Source: Actinomycetota bacterium (GTDB lineage Bacteria; Actinomycetota; Acidimicrobiia; Spongiisociales; UBA4744). From it: a stretch of 64,000 bases of DNA. Both the position numbers and the translations under genes were made by a program. Positions 54,416 through 64,000 of this stretch are shown one piece after another (positions within the stretch are counted from its first letter, which is position 1; every line of letters starts with the position of its first letter). The notes beneath the pieces were generated by a model, which worked only from the letters and a program-made list of their open reading frames with translations, was not told the DNA's origin and searched no databases. The DNA lies in contig JAADGS010000027.1 in assembly GCA_013152275.1 (NCBI GenBank), positions 86,658 through 150,657 of the forward strand, in the 5' to 3' direction.

Positions 54416-56119
54416 TCAGCGCATGTCCGCCTCGACCTCCTGCGGGAGGGGGAACCAGCGGATGGCTTCTGCGGAGGGTGACAGGCTGATCGGCTCACCA
54501 TCGAACGGTGCGAGGGGCTGCCCGAGGATCCGACGCGCCGCAGACAAGTAGGCCGGAAGGCGATCGAGGGGTTCGACCGGCCGACGTCGAGGGTAGGTCA
54601 TCGCCGCTCCGTCGTAGGTGATGTCGGCGAGTGCCATCGGAGGCACGCGGGTCCCGGCTCGATGCCGCCACACTGCCGTCGCGGGGTCGACGCCGTACCG
54701 GCTCAGGATCCGCCATCCGTCGTTGGCGATGAGGTGCACTGCGTCGACGATGTAGGAGAACTCGTCCTCGCCGATGAAGTAGTTGAAGTTGACGCGAGCC
54801 CAACCGGGCTTGATGATCTCGCAGCCATCCTCGACCTCCTTCTCGAGACGTCGGCTCATCTCGTGGTCGATACCGAGGAGACGATGTCCGTACGGCCCGG
54901 CGCAGGAGCAACCGCCGCGTGCCTGAATGCCGAAGAGGTCGTTCAAGAGTGCAACGACGTAGTTGTGGTGGAGCCACCGGTCGATCCCGAAGCGTTCGGG
55001 AGCGCGCACCACGAACGACACGATCGAGAGCCGATCGGCGTCGGGGTTGCCGAGGATCCGGATGTTCGGATCGTCTCGCCAGGAACCGATCGCTCGACGG
55101 ATGAACGCTGACTCGCGGCGCCGAATCTCGTCGGATCCGACCGCCTCCTTGAGTTGGAACACGAGTCCGGCTCTGATCGACTCGACGATCGCCGGCGTGC
55201 CGCCCTCCTCACGGTGCTCCTGATCGCGGAGGTAGTGGTGCTCGAACGAGCTCACGTAGCTGACCGTCCCTCCGCCCGGCACCGACGGAACCCGATTGTG
55301 GAGGAGATCGCGACGTACGGCGAGCACACCGGGAGTCTGCGGCCCACCGATGAACTTGTGCGGAGAGATGAACACGGCATCCTTGTAGTCGTCACCGTGC
55401 GTGTCCGGGGATCGGAGCTCGACCGCGACGTAGGGTGCCGCAGCCGCGAAATCCCAGAACGACAAGGCTCCGTGACGGTGCAGCATGGACGAGATCGCCG
55501 ACGTGTCGGTGATGATGCCGGTGACGTTGGAGGCGGCGGAGAAACTGCCGATTCGCAGAGGGCGGTTCTGGTACTCGACCAGCATCTCGTCGAGATGTCC
55601 GAGGTCGATGTGGCCGTCGTCGTCCTCGCGGATCTCGACAACGTCGGCGATCGATTCGAGCCAGGGGAGTTCGTTGGAATGATGCTCATACGGGCCGACG
55701 AAGACGACCGGCCTGTCCCTCGAGGGAATGTGGTCTTCGAGATGGTGGCGCTCATCGAGCTCGGCCGGGATTCGGATGCCGAGGATGGTGATCAGCTTGT
55801 CGATCGCTCCGGTCGACCCCGACCCACAGAAGATGACTGCGTGCTCATCATCGTTTCCGCCGAGGCATCGTTTGATGATCGACCTGGCCTCTTCGCGGAA
55901 CCGAGTTGTCTGGAGCCCCGTTCTGGACGTTTCGGTATGGGTGTTGGCATAGAGGGGCAAGACCACATCGTGGATGTAGTCCTCGATGAACGACAGCGGC
56001 TTCCCCGAGGCCGTGTAGTCGGCGTAGGTGATCCGCCGGGGGCCGAAGGGACCGTCGATCGCCGCATCGGCGCCGACCACGGAAGAGCGAATCAACTCGA
56101 TGAGGTTTTCGGTTGCCAT
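54416..56119 (-). CDS. Class V aminotransferase / cysteine desulfurase-like, long form
   Basis: 567-aa PLP enzyme. The PLP lysine is in FISPHKFIGGPQTPG, preceded by SFWDFAAAAPYVAVEL. Unlike the gene at 1.8 kb, it keeps a cysteine-rich active-site loop IQARGGCSCAGPYGHRLL, reminiscent of the catalytic Cys loop in desulfurases. A C-terminal ~110-residue extension follows. Substrate unknown; sulfur mobilisation is a reasonable guess. ATG 56119 lies 6 nt after TACCAT (plus-strand 56126-56131); the longer frame to 56188 is rejected. Confidence 0.85.
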   Translation of the reverse strand: MATENLIELIRSSVVGADAAIDGPFGPRRITYADYTASGKPLSFIEDYIHDVVLPLYANTHTETSRTGLQTTRFREEARSIIKRCLGGNDDEHAVIFCGSGSTGAIDKLITILGIRIPAELDERHHLEDHIPSRDRPVVFVGPYEHHSNELPWLESIADVVEIREDDDGHIDLGHLDEMLVEYQNRPLRIGSFSAASNVTGIITDTSAISSMLHRHGALSFWDFAAAAPYVAVELRSPDTHGDDYKDAVFISPHKFIGGPQTPGVLAVRRDLLHNRVPSVPGGGTVSYVSSFEHHYLRDQEHREEGGTPAIVESIRAGLVFQLKEAVGSDEIRRRESAFIRRAIGSWRDDPNIRILGNPDADRLSIVSFVVRAPERFGIDRWLHHNYVVALLNDLFGIQARGGCSCAGPYGHRLLGIDHEMSRRLEKEVEDGCEIIKPGWARVNFNYFIGEDEFSYIVDAVHLIANDGWRILSRYGVDPATAVWRHRAGTRVPPMALADITYDGAAMTYPRRRPVEPLDRLPAYLSAARRILGQPLAPFDGEPISLSPSAEAIRWFPLPQEVEADMR

Positions 56120-56245: not shown

Positions 56246-56929
56246 ATGAGTGGTTCCCGAATCCTGATCGCCGAAGACGATCGCGGCGTGCGCCAATCAC
56301 TGGAGCGAGCTCTGCGCTTTGAGGGTTACGACGTGTCCGCCGTCAAGGATGGTGCCGAGGCACTGGAGGTGCTCATCGAGGATGTTCCCGACCTACTGTT
56401 GCTGGACGTGATGATGCCACACATCGACGGTCTCACCGTGTGCCGGCGGCTGCGGGCCACCGGTAACGCTGTCCCGGTGCTCATGCTGACGGCGCGTCAT
56501 GAGGTCCGTGACCGTGTCGCCGGGCTCGACGCGGGTGCCGACGATTATCTCGTCAAGCCGTTCGCGTTGGAGGAGCTGTTGGCGCGAATCCGTGCGCTCC
56601 TTCGGCGCAACGTCCCTGCCGAAGGAGCCGAAACGCTGACGGTCGGTGATCTGACTCTCGATCCCCGCACGCGCAAGGTCACGAGAGGGGATCGTGAGCT
56701 CAACCTCACGAAGACGGAGTTCGATCTCCTCGAGCTGCTCCTCATGAACGCCGGTGTGGTCCTGACGAGAGAAGTGATCTACGAGCGGATTTGGGGGTAC
56801 GACTTCGGAACGAGCTCGAACTCCCTGGATGTCTATATCGGCTACCTACGACGAAAGATGGAGGAAGGCGGCGAGCCGAGGCTCATCAGCACCGTTCGCG
56901 GCGTCGGTTACGTGATACGGAAGCCATGA
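56246..56929 (+). CDS. OmpR-family response regulator, MprA-like
   Basis: 227 aa: receiver with AEDD (~9-12), phosphorylated Asp54 in LLLLDVMMP and Lys in [14 protein letters not shown], then a winged helix ([57 protein letters not shown]). Closest in type to mycobacterial MprA. Coupled to the kinase by ATGA. Start is leaderless. Confidence 0.95.
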
Positions 56930-58266
56930 AGCTGCGAGCAAGACTCACGATGCTGGTCACCGGCGCAGTGGCACTTGCCGTGATTCTCGTTTCCGCTTCG
57001 GCGTTCTTTCTCGCTCGCGCCCAGATGCGTTCGGTGATCGACGAGTCGCTCCTGGACCGTATCGCGTTCGCCACGCGCGTCGAGAATGCCAGCGGGATGA
57101 TGCGCCGGGTAGGTCCGCTGCTGCTCGCCGGCGCTGCCGGCGATCTCTTTCGTTTGGATCAATACGTGCAGGTGGTCTTCGCCGACGGGTCGATCGAGAC
57201 TCCTCTTGGCCAGGAGCTGATACTGCCGGTCACCAATCATGACGTGGCGATCGCCGCAGGCGCCGAGCATGGGATCATTCGTGATGTCTTCGTCGACGGT
57301 CTGCATCTTCGGATGGTGACCGGCCCGGCCGGCAAGGGCCAGGCGGTCCAGTACGCCCGCCCGTTGACCGAAGTCGATCAGACACTCGCAAAACTCGCTT
57401 TGGTGCTCGGCCTCGTCGGGCTCGGTGGTATCGCGATCGCCGCCGCTCTCGGGATGATCGTCTCGCGCAGCAGCCTCGCGCCGGTGATGGCGCTCACGGC
57501 GACTGCAGAGCATGTCGCAGAAACACAGGACCTCGAGGCACGGATCGACGTCGATCGCGACGACGAGATCGGGCGACTTGCAGCGTCCTTCAACACGATG
57601 CTGGAGGCATTGCAGACCTCGCGTGAGCAGCAGCGCAGGCTGGTTGCCGACGCATCACACGAACTGCGAACACCTCTCACGAGCCTGCGGACCAACATCG
57701 AGTTCCTTGCCCGGGCCGAGGGGATGGGTGACGACGACCGGATGGCACTCATGGACGATGTGTCTTTCGAGATGCGCGAGTTGAGCAGCCTGGTCGGTGA
57801 AATGGTCGAGCTTGCGACCGATCCGAAGGCAGGCGACGAGCCGCTACAGGGTGTCGACCTCACCGAGACGGTCGACGAGGTTGTCGGACGGGCTCAGCGG
57901 AGAACCGGAAGGACGATCGAAGTGTCGGGTGATGCAGGGCAGATCGAAGGGCGTCCGAACTCGCTTCAGCGCGCCGTGTCGAACCTGATCGACAACGCTC
58001 ACAAGTGGAGCCCTCCGGAGGCGCCGATCACGATCACCCTCTCACCGGGCAGGGTGGAGGTCGCCGATCGCGGGCCAGGGATTCCCACGGAGGACCTTGC
58101 CTACGTCTTCGATCGTTTCTATCGGGCGACCGAAGCGAGGTCCCTCCCCGGATCCGGGCTTGGGCTGTCGATCGTCAGGGAGATCGTCGAGAACCATGGC
58201 GGCACCGTGTTCGCGTTCAACCGGGACGGTGCGGTCGTCGGGTTCGAGATCCCGATTCTCACCTGA
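56926..58266 (+). CDS. Sensor histidine kinase, MprB-like
   Basis: 446 aa. Two membrane helices (residues ~8-30 and ~155-180) flank an extracytoplasmic sensor; then HAMP ([20 protein letters not shown]), phospho-acceptor His245 in [15 protein letters not shown]-box [10 protein letters not shown]-boxes VADRGPGIP and [13 protein letters not shown]. In mycobacteria mprAB senses envelope stress and lies beside the HtrA gene pepD; an HtrA gene is also the next gene here, though in convergent orientation. The last codons overlap a regulator-site array. Confidence 0.95.
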
Positions 58267-58826: not shown

Positions 58827-59882
58827 TCAGCGCTCGCCGACGGTGACGGCGATGGTGCCCTGCCGGCTGCCTCGGACGACGGTCAGCAGGAGCACGTCCC
58901 CTTTCTTGGCCGCGGCGATCGTGGCCTCCAAGGTCGGCTGATCGGTGACCTTTGCTCCGTTCACCGCGGTGATGATGTCACCGACCTGGAGACCTGCGCT
59001 GTCGGCCGGGCCGGTCGGGAGCACGGTCGTGACGATCACACCTTCGTTCGTCGCCAGTCCGAACCGTTGTTGATACTCGTCGCCGTTGGTGACGAATCCG
59101 ATACCGATGAAGGCCCTGCCGAGACCTTCGAGGACGCGGTCGACGTCGGGAAGTGCGGTTTCGATCGGTATCGCAAATCCGATGTTCTGTGCGTTGCCTG
59201 CGATTGCGGTGTTGATGCCGATCACCTCGCCATTCCGGTTCAGTAGCGGCCCGCCGGAGTTGCCCGGGTTGATGGCCGCGTCGGTTTGCAGGAGGCCGCT
59301 GAGCCGACCGGTTTGCGTCCGGATCGTTCGATCGACGGCGGAGAGGATACCGACGGTGACCGTCGGTGAAGAGCTGTCCAGGCCCAGTGCGTTGCCGATG
59401 GCGACCACCGGGTCACCGACGTCCATCGAGTCTGCCCTTCCCAGCGGGAGTGGCTCGAGACCCTGTGCGTCGTCGACTTTGAGGATCGCCACATCGTCCG
59501 CCGGGAAGCCTCCGATCACTTTGGCGGTTCGTGTCCGGGCGTCCTCCCCGACGATCGTCACCTGGTCGGCTCCCGCGATGACGTGGAAGTTGGTGAGGAT
59601 GTGGCCATCGTTGTCGATGACGATGCCGGTGCCGGTGCCCGACTCGCTCAGCTCTCGCCGCAGGAACATGTCGATGGTGATTCTGCTTTGCGTAACCGTG
59701 ACGATGCCGGATCGAACGGTGTCGACGAGGTCCGAGACGTCGTAGAGGATCACCCCCGGCTGTGGAACGGCAGGCGAGATGGCAGGAGGCATGGCCGGTG
59801 CGCGCGATGGCGCGTTCACGGCGCCGAGACCTGCGCATGCCGACAGCACGATCGAGAACGCTGCAACGGAGATCGGGCGCAT
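58827..59882 (-). CDS. HtrA-type serine protease with PDZ domain, lipoprotein
   Basis: 351 aa. A signal peptide ends in lipobox LSAC, so it is probably anchored outside the membrane. Trypsin-like triad: His in ILTNFHVIAG, Asp in DDVAILKVDD, Ser in NPGNSGGPLL. The PDZ domain is GVIVTTVLPTGPADSAGLQVGDIITAVNG. ATG 59882 is supported by TACACT 7 nt upstream (plus-strand 59890-59895) and by the lipobox; ATG 59942 is an alternative. Extracytoplasmic protein quality control, possibly tied to the MprAB-like system. Confidence 0.9.
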   Translation of the reverse strand: MRPISVAAFSIVLSACAGLGAVNAPSRAPAMPPAISPAVPQPGVILYDVSDLVDTVRSGIVTVTQSRITIDMFLRRELSESGTGTGIVIDNDGHILTNFHVIAGADQVTIVGEDARTRTAKVIGGFPADDVAILKVDDAQGLEPLPLGRADSMDVGDPVVAIGNALGLDSSSPTVTVGILSAVDRTIRTQTGRLSGLLQTDAAINPGNSGGPLLNRNGEVIGINTAIAGNAQNIGFAIPIETALPDVDRVLEGLGRAFIGIGFVTNGDEYQQRFGLATNEGVIVTTVLPTGPADSAGLQVGDIITAVNGAKVTDQPTLEATIAAAKKGDVLLLTVVRGSRQGTIAVTVGER

Positions 59883-60035: not shown

Positions 60036-61529
60036 ATGGCACAGGATCCCGGACACGTTCCAGACGAGAAGGCGTCGAAGAGGCTCCTTCGACGCGATTT
60101 CCTGATCGGCCTGATCGCGATCCTGGTGGTGATCCTTGTTCCGATCATCATCTTCGTGCCGTTGCGGAGCCCTGCTACGCCGAGTGACCCGTGGTCTCAC
60201 GTCCCGGAGAAGCTGGGGCACACCGACCACACGGCCTTGATGCCCGGCCCGTACGAGACCGGACAGGAGGTCACCCGGGCCTGTTTGGAGTGTCATCCCG
60301 ACGCCGGTGAAGACATGCTGCACTCGGAGCACTTCACATGGGTGAACGATCCCGTCCCCATCGCAGGTCGGCAAGAACCGGTTGCGTTCGGCAAGAAGAA
60401 CTCGATCAACAACTTCTGTCTCGGTGTGCAGGGGAACTGGCCGAAGTGCACGACCTGCCATGCCGGCTACGGATGGTCGGACGAGAACTTCGACTTCACG
60501 AACGAGGACAACATCGACTGTCTCGTCTGCCACAACCAATCCGACGCGTACGCCAAGGGGGAGTCAGGCAACCCCGCAGAGGGATCCGACCTCACCATCG
60601 CCGCGCAGAGCGTCGCGAATCCCTCACGTTGGAATTGCGGCCAATGCCATTTCGAGGGCGGGGGCGGCAACGGGGTCAAACACGGGGACCTCGACGACAC
60701 GCTCATCTATCCGGACGAGAACATCGACGTCCACATGGGCAGGTACGACCTCGTTTGCACCGACTGTCACAAGACGGAGGACCACGACATCAAGGGCACC
60801 GCCACGTCGGTTGCACTCGATGCACACAACCAGATCCTTTGTACCGACTGCCACGATTCGAAACCGCACGAGGATGAGCGCCTGAACGGTCACACCGACG
60901 CGGTGGCGTGTCAGACCTGCCATGTCCCCGAGTACGCGCTGAAGGACCCGACGAAGATGTGGTGGGACTGGTCGACAGCCGGCAGCGACAGTATCCCGCA
61001 GGATCACTACACATACCTCAAGATCAAGGGCAGCTTCGTCTACGACACGAAGGTGACGCCCGAGTACTTCTGGAACGACGGAACCGCCGATCGATACCTG
61101 CTCGGTGACCCGATCGATACCGATGGCCCTACCCCGCTGAACAAACCCAACGGTGACATCACAGATCCGGGATCGAAGATCTGGCCCTTCAAGGTCCATC
61201 GTGCCAAGCAGCCGTATGACACCGTCAACAACATCCTGATTCAGCCGAAGTTGGCCGGTGAGGGCGGCTACTGGGTCGACTTCGACTGGCCAACGGCCTT
61301 GAGACTGGGAGCGGAGATCACCGGCCTGGACTACAGCGGCGAGTACGGATTCACGCGCACCGACATGTGGTGGCCGATCACCCACATGGTGCAGCCTGCA
61401 GAGAAGGCTCTGCAGTGCAACGACTGCCACGGAGATGGAGGCAGGTTCGATTGGGAGGCGCTCGGCTATCCCGGTGACCCGATGTTCTCTGGTGGCAGGG
61501 TCGATCTCGGTCTCGTGGGAGGCGAGTGA
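60036..61529 (+). CDS. Octaheme c-type cytochrome, tetrathionate reductase (Otr) family
   Basis: 497 aa. An N-terminal signal anchor (DFLIGLIAILVVILVPIIIFV, ~21-42) puts the protein outside the membrane. Eight CxxCH heme sites begin at Cys83, 138, 162, 201, 241, 269, 292 and 461; seven are close together and the eighth is far downstream, with long heme-free stretches between, as in octaheme tetrathionate reductase-like cytochromes. In Shewanella that protein reduces tetrathionate, nitrite and hydroxylamine in vitro, so the true substrate here is open. Coupled to the next gene by TGATG. The start has a leader and only a weak purine-rich site. Confidence 0.88.
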   Translation: MAQDPGHVPDEKASKRLLRRDFLIGLIAILVVILVPIIIFVPLRSPATPSDPWSHVPEKLGHTDHTALMPGPYETGQEVTRACLECHPDAGEDMLHSEHFTWVNDPVPIAGRQEPVAFGKKNSINNFCLGVQGNWPKCTTCHAGYGWSDENFDFTNEDNIDCLVCHNQSDAYAKGESGNPAEGSDLTIAAQSVANPSRWNCGQCHFEGGGGNGVKHGDLDDTLIYPDENIDVHMGRYDLVCTDCHKTEDHDIKGTATSVALDAHNQILCTDCHDSKPHEDERLNGHTDAVACQTCHVPEYALKDPTKMWWDWSTAGSDSIPQDHYTYLKIKGSFVYDTKVTPEYFWNDGTADRYLLGDPIDTDGPTPLNKPNGDITDPGSKIWPFKVHRAKQPYDTVNNILIQPKLAGEGGYWVDFDWPTALRLGAEITGLDYSGEYGFTRTDMWWPITHMVQPAEKALQCNDCHGDGGRFDWEALGYPGDPMFSGGRVDLGLVGGE

Positions 61530-64000
61530 TGGGACGCAAGACCGTACGCCGGAGTCTGACAGTCGGCTTGGCTGCCACCGCGCTCCTGACCGCCACCTTG
61601 GCTGCGATGACGAGACCGGCGGCCGCCGACGTGAGCCCCGTGCATCCCCGGTACGAACTGCTGGACCAGAACGGTCGGAATGTGCTCGATTCGGGCGGGC
61701 CGGTTTCCACGATGCAGACATGTGGACAGTGCCACGACACCGAGTTCATCGCCGATCACGACTTCCATTCCGACCAGGGGTTGACTTCGATGACCGAGCC
61801 GGGGTTGAGCCCCTCAGGCCGGCCCTGGGATACGAGTCCTGGTTGGTTTGGTGAGTGGAGCCCGATCACGTATCGGTATCTGTCGCCGGTAGGTGACGAG
61901 CGACTCGACCTCGGCACCGCAGACTGGATCGAAGCGCTCGGCTACCGCCATCCTGGCGGCGGTCCGGCCACGACGTCGCGAAACGGATCGCCGCTCGGCG
62001 ATCTGGCGGTGATCCCCGGGGATCCGGAGACACACGTCGTCGATTCGGCCTCTGGCCAGATCGTGCCCTGGGATTGGAAGTCGTCGGGTGTCGAGGAACT
62101 CAACTGCTTCCTCTGCCACATACCGCAGCCCGACAACGCCTCCAGGATGCGTGAGCTTGCCGCAGGACGGTTCGAATGGGCCAACACGGCGACGCTCAAC
62201 GGAACCGGGATCGTGACCTCGACCGTGGACCATGCCTGGAAGTGGAACCCCGGGGCGTTCGATGAAGATGGGAGACTGGCGAAGCAATACGTCAGGATCC
62301 AGGACCCCTCGAACGACAACTGCGGAATATGCCATGGGGTCGTTCACGACTCCGACCGACCGCTCGACGAAGTGGGTTCGACGACCGGCGGATGGGAGAC
62401 CCTGACCACAGGCCAGGTCTTCTCGGCACAGCGGATCTCCGAATCGGCGCTCAATCTCGCCGACAAACAAGACCTGAACCGGGCGTGGGACGTACACGCC
62501 GAGCGCCTGGTGAAGTGCACCGACTGCCACCACTCGCTCAACAACCCCATCTATCTCGAGACGGCACGACCGAGTTACCTGGATTTCGATGCCCGTAGGG
62601 CCGACATCGGTGACTATCTGACCCGGCCTCTCCATGAGCTGGCAAGGGGCAGAAGCGCCCAGGGGACGCTCGCCCCGGAGTTCGACTACACGATGCGATC
62701 CTGTGAGTCGTGTCACGGTATCGAGAAGGCGCACGAGTGGCTTCCCTTTGCCGACCGACACATGGAGCAGCTTGCATGCGAGACATGCCATATCCCCAAG
62801 ATGTACATGCCCGCCGCCGAACAGTACGACTGGACGGTCATCCACACCGATGGCACTCCGGCGGTGGTGAACCGGGGCATCGATGGGGTGCCGGGTGACC
62901 CTTCGGCGCTGATCACCGGCTACGAGCCGGTCATCCTGAAGCGTGTCGGTGAGGAAGGCGAGACTCGCCTCGCCCCGTACAACCTGGTGTCGTCATGGTT
63001 CTGGATATACGGCGATCCTGCGCGTCCTGTGCGTCAGAGGGACCTCGAAGCCGCGTTCCTGGTCGGGGGTGCATACCGACCTGAAATCGTGGCAGCGTTC
63101 GATACGAACGGCGACGGAGTCGTCGCCGAGAGAGAACTCGTGATCGACACGACGGAAAAGGAGGCGGCTGTCAAGAGTCGGCTCGAGGCGATCGGGCTCT
63201 CCGATCCTCGCATCGATTCGGAGATTCAGCCCTTCACCGTGGCTCATGGTGTGACCGGTGGTGAATTCGCCACCAAGGATTGTCAGACGTGCCATACGAA
63301 AGACTCCCGGCTCACGGCGTCCATGCAGCTTGCGGCATATGTGCCCGGCGGAGTCATACCGCACTTCGTCTCCGACACGAATACGGAGACGACAGGCTCG
63401 GTGCAACTGGCCGAAGATGGAACGCTCTGGTATCAGCCGACGACGTCGGAGGCCGACATCGGGGTGTTGGGAAGCGATTCGGGCGGTTGGATCGATTGGT
63501 TCGGCTGGGTGCTGCTCATCCTGACACTCCTCGGAATCAGTCTGCACGGCGCCCTCCGGGTTCTTCTCGGACTCAGGTTGAGCAAGGCCAAGCCCAAGAC
63601 GGTGCTCGTGCACATCTATGAACCGTATGAGCGGTTCTGGCATTGGTTGCAGGCAGTGGCGATCATCCTGCTGGTGGTCACGGGTGCGATCATCCACTGG
63701 CCAGGTGCCGTGAGTCCTCGAGGCTTTACGAGGCTCGTGATCACCCACAATGTGATGGCGGCCATCTTGGTGGCCAACGCGTTGCTGTCGATCGTCTGGC
63801 ACGTTGCCAGCGGCGCGATTCGCCAGTACATCCCGCGGCCGAGAGGGTTCTTCGACCAGGCAGTCCGCCAGGCGGTCTTCTACGTGCAGGGCATCTTCAG
63901 AGGTGAACCCCACCCGTTCGAGAAGGATGCCCGCCACAAGATGAATCCTTTGCAGCAGATGACATACGTCGTGATTCTGAATGTGTTGTTGCCGCTGCAA
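61529..64000 (+). CDS. Multiheme cytochrome c - EF-hand - cytochrome b fusion (partial, runs off the edge)
   Basis: Open for 824 codons to the window edge. A signal peptide (AATALLTATLAAMTRPAAAD, cleaved near residue 34) leads to a large extracytoplasmic part with seven CxxCH sites at Cys65, 193, 265, 330, 392, 417 and 585. An EF-hand-like loop DTNGDGVVAERE (525-536) lies between sites 6 and 7. After it come a membrane segment (~655-680) and a cytochrome b-type domain: YEPYERFWHWLQAVAIILLV and LVITHNVMAAILVANALLSIVWH, with histidines in the positions of heme b ligands (formate dehydrogenase gamma / thiosulfate reductase cytochrome b type). It probably carries electrons from quinol to the octaheme protein, or the reverse. 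Confidence 0.85.
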   Translation, partial: MGRKTVRRSLTVGLAATALLTATLAAMTRPAAADVSPVHPRYELLDQNGRNVLDSGGPVSTMQTCGQCHDTEFIADHDFHSDQGLTSMTEPGLSPSGRPWDTSPGWFGEWSPITYRYLSPVGDERLDLGTADWIEALGYRHPGGGPATTSRNGSPLGDLAVIPGDPETHVVDSASGQIVPWDWKSSGVEELNCFLCHIPQPDNASRMRELAAGRFEWANTATLNGTGIVTSTVDHAWKWNPGAFDEDGRLAKQYVRIQDPSNDNCGICHGVVHDSDRPLDEVGSTTGGWETLTTGQVFSAQRISESALNLADKQDLNRAWDVHAERLVKCTDCHHSLNNPIYLETARPSYLDFDARRADIGDYLTRPLHELARGRSAQGTLAPEFDYTMRSCESCHGIEKAHEWLPFADRHMEQLACETCHIPKMYMPAAEQYDWTVIHTDGTPAVVNRGIDGVPGDPSALITGYEPVILKRVGEEGETRLAPYNLVSSWFWIYGDPARPVRQRDLEAAFLVGGAYRPEIVAAFDTNGDGVVAERELVIDTTEKEAAVKSRLEAIGLSDPRIDSEIQPFTVAHGVTGGEFATKDCQTCHTKDSRLTASMQLAAYVPGGVIPHFVSDTNTETTGSVQLAEDGTLWYQPTTSEADIGVLGSDSGGWIDWFGWVLLILTLLGISLHGALRVLLGLRLSKAKPKTVLVHIYEPYERFWHWLQAVAIILLVVTGAIIHWPGAVSPRGFTRLVITHNVMAAILVANALLSIVWHVASGAIRQYIPRPRGFFDQAVRQAVFYVQGIFRGEPHPFEKDARHKMNPLQQMTYVVILNVLLPLQ

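Follow-up and report, generated by a model that had tools for sequence, protein, structure and literature searches.

A stretch of 64,000 nucleotides from an actinobacterial genome contig (hereafter the window, C27:86658-150657 of a 198 kb contig) reaches at its right end into a four-gene operon, otr-fusion-YedE-a-YedE-b, which encodes an octaheme cytochrome of the OTR family, a single chain joining a heptaheme domain, an EF-hand loop and a cytochrome b, and two proteins of a sulfur-transport family. On balance we favour the view that these genes form a membrane module in which redox reactions of an inorganic sulfur compound are linked to quinone and coupled to the import of sulfur. An earlier note on the window, made from its letters, had reported the octaheme cytochrome and the fusion gene overlapping it. 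Both are real and lie where that note placed them, with 8 and 7 CXXCH motifs and matches to TIGR04315 and PF01292, respectively, and its idea that an OTR-family octaheme protein stands beside what looks like its quinone partner is supported. On an extended stretch of the same contig (L002) the fusion gene continues past the window edge with no stop and no frameshift until L002:4892 (window position 64234), completing a protein of 902 residues; the early stop, frameshift or truncated cytochrome b which the note had feared is not there. A search for further partners located YedE-a and YedE-b directly downstream on the same strand. The features of the operon are as follows, with window numbering continued beyond its edge.

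60036-61529, forward strand: otr-like gene, octaheme c-type cytochrome of 497 residues with an N-terminal membrane anchor
60099-60161 (approximate), forward strand: predicted membrane-spanning anchor near the N-terminus of the octaheme protein, from hydropathy, following a K/R-rich segment that is probably cytoplasmic
60675-60689, forward strand: VKHGD motif of OTR, Lys215 being aligned to the VKHGD lysine of 1SP3
61526-64000, continuing to 64234 on the contig (L002:2184-4892), forward strand: gene for the heptaheme / EF-hand / cytochrome b fusion
61526-61630, forward strand: signal-peptide-like N-terminal segment of the fusion, from sequence, with a predicted helix at residues 5-26
61721-63295, forward strand: heptaheme domain, CXXCH at 61721, 62105, 62303, 62516, 62702, 62777 and 63281
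63101-63136, forward strand: EF-hand calcium-type loop DTNGDGVVAERE, residues 526-537
63482-64000, continuing to about 64219, forward strand: cytochrome b domain (PF01292), residues 698-889
64231-64782 (L002:4889-5440), forward strand: YedE-a, 183 residues, PF04143 at 88.0 bits against a cut-off of 27
64793-66037 (L002:5451-6695), forward strand: YedE-b-rhodanese-GGCG, 414 residues, PF04143 at 54.5 bits against a cut-off of 27

Conservation and distribution of the operon

Occurrence was assessed by scanning genome contigs with the single fusion protein as query, after an exact-peptide prefilter which favours near relatives and may miss distant forms elsewhere. The scan confirmed 58 loci with the fusion, all in Chloroflexota (Anaerolineae/Anaerolineales where named, otherwise Chloroflexi) and at ~47-54% identity. 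All 48 loci that are not cut by a contig end contain otr, fusion, YedE-a and YedE-b in this order and on a single strand, while contig ends interrupt the remaining ten; the pair of cytochromes is thus not the self-contained module it had been taken for, since the two sulfur-transport genes always follow. The fusion was present in 13 of 350 evenly drawn Chloroflexota genomes and, in the phylum of the window itself, in two of 397 sampled genomes, namely the window genome and G018, the latter with a complete four-gene operon. The operon also occurs, split over two contigs, in G002, which belongs to the same family as the window genome. The earlier description of the module as actinobacterial therefore holds for these three genomes, but its main home is Chloroflexota, and it appears that some Anaerolineae have in common a sulfur module that annotation gene by gene would overlook.

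In a tree of OTR sequences, those from the operon form one clade, separated from the five other OTRs included with a support of 100/100, the window genome and G002 lying at its base and G018 within the Anaerolineae. The three actinobacterial copies do not group together in the best trees, and these sequences make it likely that the operon moved between phyla; a single actinobacterial clade was not rejected (approximately unbiased test, p 0.48 for OTR and 0.46 for the fusion), so there may have been one transfer or several, in either direction. No signal of recent transfer was found in base composition, the genes having a GC content of 0.61-0.62 compared with 0.64 for the window. We weighed contamination of the assembly as an explanation and discarded it, as G002 has the same operon together with the gene in the HtrA position, the regulator pair and the SufS-like neighbour, partly rearranged.

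The components are each already known: OTR, OTR beside a cytochrome b561 (PMC7509429), importers of the YeeE/PmpAB type and SoxY arms. In open-licence literature no description was found of the fusion, of the four-gene unit or of a rhodanese importer with a GGCG tail. The possibility, raised earlier, that the fusion might be common and have a known other function was half right: it is fairly common within one class, but no published function for it was found in that literature.

The two cytochromes and the split importer

The product of the first gene scores 562 bits on TIGR04315 in a profile search, above the family cut-off of 375, and its best PDB match is the octaheme cytochrome of Shewanella oneidensis (1SP3, E 3e-144), with all eight heme sites aligned. 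Its eight CXXCH motifs are found at residues 83, 138, 162, 201, 241, 269, 292 and 461, and exactly eight such motifs, as well as VKHGD, are present in every one of the 55 operon OTRs longer than 430 residues. What the window protein has in common with that of S. oneidensis (1SP3, TIGR04315) is thus the eight CXXCH motifs, the C-terminal Cytochrome_cB domain and the VKHGD lysine, reportedly the ligand of the active-site, catalytic heme (Mowat 2004). The Shewanella protein is soluble and periplasmic, in contrast to the window protein with its predicted N-terminal membrane anchor, a feature that recurs across 54 operon OTRs (median hydropathy peak 2.68, median net charge ahead of the anchor +3). 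The partners differ as well: Shewanella uses a CymA/STC route (PMC4484225), whereas here the multiheme-cytochrome b fusion would stand in for it. Another arrangement, in which OTR adjoins a separate cytochrome b561 gene, is known in Ignavibacteria (PMC7509429), and the OTR genes of Photobacterium and Paracoccus likewise lie beside a gene for a b561-type cytochrome b. In these two, however, the OTR has a C-terminal membrane helix, the cytochrome b is a protein of its own of ~200 residues, and neither a heptaheme domain nor a YeeE pair was found adjoining.

The fusion gene starts at a GTG (61526) and shares 4 bases with the end of the first gene. Its seven CXXCH motifs (residues 66, 194, 266, 331, 393, 418 and 586) are matched by exactly seven in each of the 58 fusion proteins longer than 800 residues; this constancy, together with that of the eight motifs in all 55 OTRs, argues against a chance pattern. 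Outside the heme motifs, seven histidines of the c-type domain are invariant in 51 of 51 aligned rows (H40, H81, H324, H370, H403, H412 and H574). As seven hemes are matched by seven spare conserved histidines, these counts point to bis-histidine ligation throughout and to a domain acting as a wire, not a catalyst. In the EF-hand loop D526 and E537 are kept in all 51 rows, as is N or D at position 528, with D or N at 530 in 50 and G531 in 46; given this near-complete conservation of the ligand positions, the fold around the loop is probably steadied by calcium or another ion.

The cytochrome b domain is complete and of the b561/FdnI/HyaC type (PF01292, 82.3 bits against a cut-off of 30.1). His 706, 741, 855 and 869 align with the histidines of HyaC in the profile alignment, and this part of the structure model retrieves 1kqf_C and 6g94_A (FdnI/HyaC fold) with Foldseek. 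The fold and the four heme-ligand positions are therefore held in common with FdnI, HyaC and PhsC, but here the cytochrome b sits behind a fused extracytoplasmic heptaheme domain of 650 residues, and the protein reaches 143 bits on the PhsC model (NF011582), short of its cut-off of 204. For the heptaheme part, which was modelled without heme and belongs to a kind of domain with little regular structure, Foldseek returned no fold match. In sequence the c-type domain gives weak, partial matches to OTR and to the heptaheme family of methanogens, and nothing stronger. The latter (MmcA type, TIGR04314) also has seven hemes, whereas the present protein is fused to a cytochrome b, and the partial match (51 bits over residues 303-539) is far short of the cut-off of 250.

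The two downstream proteins divide a transporter between them: compared with TsuA, a thiosulfate importer of solved structure, YedE-a corresponds to the C-terminal half and YedE-b to the N-terminal half, C144 of the former and C114 of the latter falling on TsuA cysteine motifs. The half-size proteins PmpA and PmpB similarly have single cysteines at TsuA positions Cys293 and Cys91, respectively (PMC11582611). By family membership YedE-a and YedE-b would accordingly be a split thiosulfate or sulfur importer of the YeeE/TsuA, PmpA/PmpB type, with which they share the build of two half-size Sulf_transp proteins, each with a conserved channel cysteine. YedE-b differs in having two additional helices, a rhodanese domain after the membrane part (PF00581, 49.4 bits against 22.2) and a GGCG end. 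No cysteine occupies the active-site position of the rhodanese domain, which is consequently classed as inactive.

GGCG is the exact C-terminus of all 52 complete YedE-b proteins and of all 11 read from a second genome set, including the divergent one of G637 (one of these 11 comes from the same genome as locus L054). C114 in the channel and C413 in the tail are the only cysteines kept without exception across the family. YedE-b has six membrane segments both by hydropathy and in the structure model, and the mean number of K/R per loop is 2.4, 1.0 and 5.5 in the loops read as inside compared with 0.2, 0.1 and 1.4 in those read as outside; from this positive-inside charge pattern the N-terminus, the rhodanese domain and the GGCG tail are predicted to face the same, extracytoplasmic side of the membrane as the hemes. 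For the last nine residues the predicted local distance difference test score (pLDDT) is below 50, as would be expected of a free arm. In the Chloroflexota sample YedE-b with a rhodanese domain was found only in genomes holding the fusion, on the same contig, the other PmpB-type hits having neither rhodanese domain nor tail.

SoxY ends in GGCGG, a motif whose cysteine is the binding site for the sulfur substrate of the Sox system (PMC6067878). Both proteins would thus present a glycine-flanked C-terminal cysteine outside the cytoplasm, that of YedE-b on a predicted side. In contrast with SoxY, YedE-b is tethered to a membrane importer, ends in GGCG and lacks the SoxY fold: a Pfam scan of 41 YedE-b proteins returned Sulf_transp, Rhodanese and DUF6691 alone, with no SoxY (PF13501) profile, and no SoxZ partner was seen in the four-gene operon. 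A SoxY search of 14 genomes gave no hit for either SoxY or the control, and so carries no weight. The tail, we infer, probably carries sulfur.

Electron flow and substrate

In the reading that we favour, menaquinol would be oxidised at the cytochrome b domain with its two b hemes, and the electrons would run through the bis-histidine heptaheme domain of the same chain to the membrane-anchored OTR, possibly within a complex. OTR would then reduce an S-S bond of the polythionate type, either in tetrathionate or on a protein cysteine modified to an S-sulfonate or thiosulfonate, and the resulting thiosulfate or sulfane sulfur would enter the cell through the YedE-a/YedE-b pair. The flexible GGCG tail most likely would bind sulfur covalently and swing from OTR to the channel cysteine and back, in the manner of SoxY in the Sox system. 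In favour of this reading, OTR reduces tetrathionate in vitro (PMC4484225), and lucinid symbionts, a case separate from the present operon, have otr next to soxY-S3 and soxZ (PMC11237559). The earlier note had left the choice between sulfur and nitrogen substrates open; the GGCG tail and the constant presence of the YeeE/PmpAB genes shift the balance to sulfur. The common annotation of OTR as a tetrathionate reductase goes back to its activity in vitro (e.g., PMC9040765), and the conserved link of its gene with a sulfur importer and a SoxY-like tail makes its physiological role concrete and testable.

Several points weigh against this reading. The studied OTR, that of Shewanella, reduces nitrite and hydroxylamine in addition to tetrathionate (PMC4484225), and the present clade has no known activity or substrate. 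The tail is GGCG, not GGCGG, and the fold that bears it is that of a rhodanese and not of SoxY, while its extracytoplasmic placement is a prediction from charge and hydropathy. The electrons could run in the oxidative direction, fixed synteny would speak for co-function and not for contact, and TusA was not found in two of the five operon-bearing Chloroflexota genomes searched for it.

A more far-reaching version, which we put forward tentatively and consider possible though not probable, is a heme-based sulfur-carrier cycle independent of Sox, in which the GGCG arm on the inactive rhodanese and split importer would feed a quinone-wired OTR, protein-bound sulfur and not free tetrathionate being the true substrate of the OTR clade.

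Plain tetrathionate (polythionate) respiration is the strongest of the competing explanations, and we regard it as rather unlikely. Electrons would pass from quinol through the heptaheme-cytochrome b chain and OTR to free tetrathionate, YedE-a and YedE-b would import thiosulfate as a sulfur source, and the GGCG tail would be the acceptor of the importer and never meet OTR. Tetrathionate is indeed reduced by OTR, genomes of 14 phyla from Zodletone have been annotated as OTR tetrathionate reducers (PMC9040765), and the YeeE family imports thiosulfate and requires a sulfur acceptor partner, TsuB (PMC11582611). This known acceptor is, however, cytoplasmic, whereas the tail of YedE-b is predicted to be outside, and a tail serving import alone would be expected on YedE-b proteins beyond the operon, where the PmpB-type hits lack it.

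An oxidative module appears improbable. OTR would then work in the manner of SoxAX, oxidising thiosulfate or sulfide on to the GGCG cysteine, with electrons flowing from OTR along the heptaheme wire to menaquinone at the cytochrome b. The fold of the latter is shared with FdnI and HyaC, whose cytochromes b pass electrons towards quinone; on the other hand, oxidation of thiosulfate by menaquinone is energetically unfavourable, Anaerolineae are mostly anaerobic heterotrophs, and no OTR is known to have oxidase activity. The SoxY-like tail would suit such a module, as would the position of otr in sulfur-oxidising lucinid symbionts, where it adjoins soxY-S3 and soxZ (PMC11237559). Least plausible of all, and in our view very improbable, is a nitrite or hydroxylamine reductase fed by menaquinol for defence against nitrosative stress, with the sulfur genes merely co-regulated, for which the proximity of otr to SUF iron-sulfur genes (adjoining in Paracoccus and for a second copy in G018, close to the operon in some Anaerolineae) may be cited. 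Against it, every locus not cut by a contig end has both sulfur-transport genes, and no gene of the nitrogen cycle was seen among the recurrent operon neighbours inspected.

Neighbouring genes and regulation

Upstream of otr the window contains the following genes.

58830-59873, reverse strand: HtrA/Do-type serine protease gene, diverging from otr
56246-58266, forward strand: response regulator and histidine kinase, a similar regulator pair being found near otr in G002
54419-56119, reverse strand: SufS-like homologue of cysteine desulfurases (117 bits against 475), at a distance of 4 kb from otr

G002 likewise has a close relative of the SufS-like homologue near otr (L046:7687-9372). Genes of the otr type recur near SUF iron-sulfur assembly genes, as seen for the second copy in G018 (L048:8141-11407), on the Paracoccus plasmid pFER4 (L142:508-8548) and in 12-22 Anaerolineae loci.

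About 44 Anaerolineae loci have a gene of the ArsR family directly before otr, -31 to 47 bases lying between its stop and the start of otr, and a cysteine just ahead of an ALxDP-type motif is present in 44 of 46 such ArsR proteins; the actinobacterial copies of the operon have no ArsR gene in this position. In Hyphomicrobium, ArsR-type repressors sensing sulfane sulfur control thiosulfate oxidation (PMC12423496), and by analogy a sulfur signal for the regulator of the operon is plausible.

About 2.6-12.2 kb past the operon in the window genome, on the reverse strand (L002:9271-18915), lies a gene set for a molybdoenzyme of the TtrA/TtrB/NrfD kind. It includes a polyferredoxin and a PhnD-like binding protein, along with two regulatory genes, for a sensor kinase and a NarL-type regulator. 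The set resembles ttrSR-ttrBCA and scores below the cut-offs of all Ttr models (TtrA 511 against 1750 bits).

Two further kinds of OTR-like protein were encountered. Two loci (L092:3651-8024 and L111:3181-7705) encode a second OTR-like protein with 15 CXXCH motifs in one chain of 738-774 residues, followed by TtrB/NrfC-like and NrfD-like genes, which we read as a possible alternative quinone link for this 15-heme set; in L092 it lies directly ahead of the four-gene operon. In another family of the same phylum, divergent OTR-like proteins (L037-L044; G413, G226, G093, G117, G078 and G106) fall below the TIGR04315 cut-off and have frames of ~570-915 residues, with 9-11 CXXCH motifs in those read.

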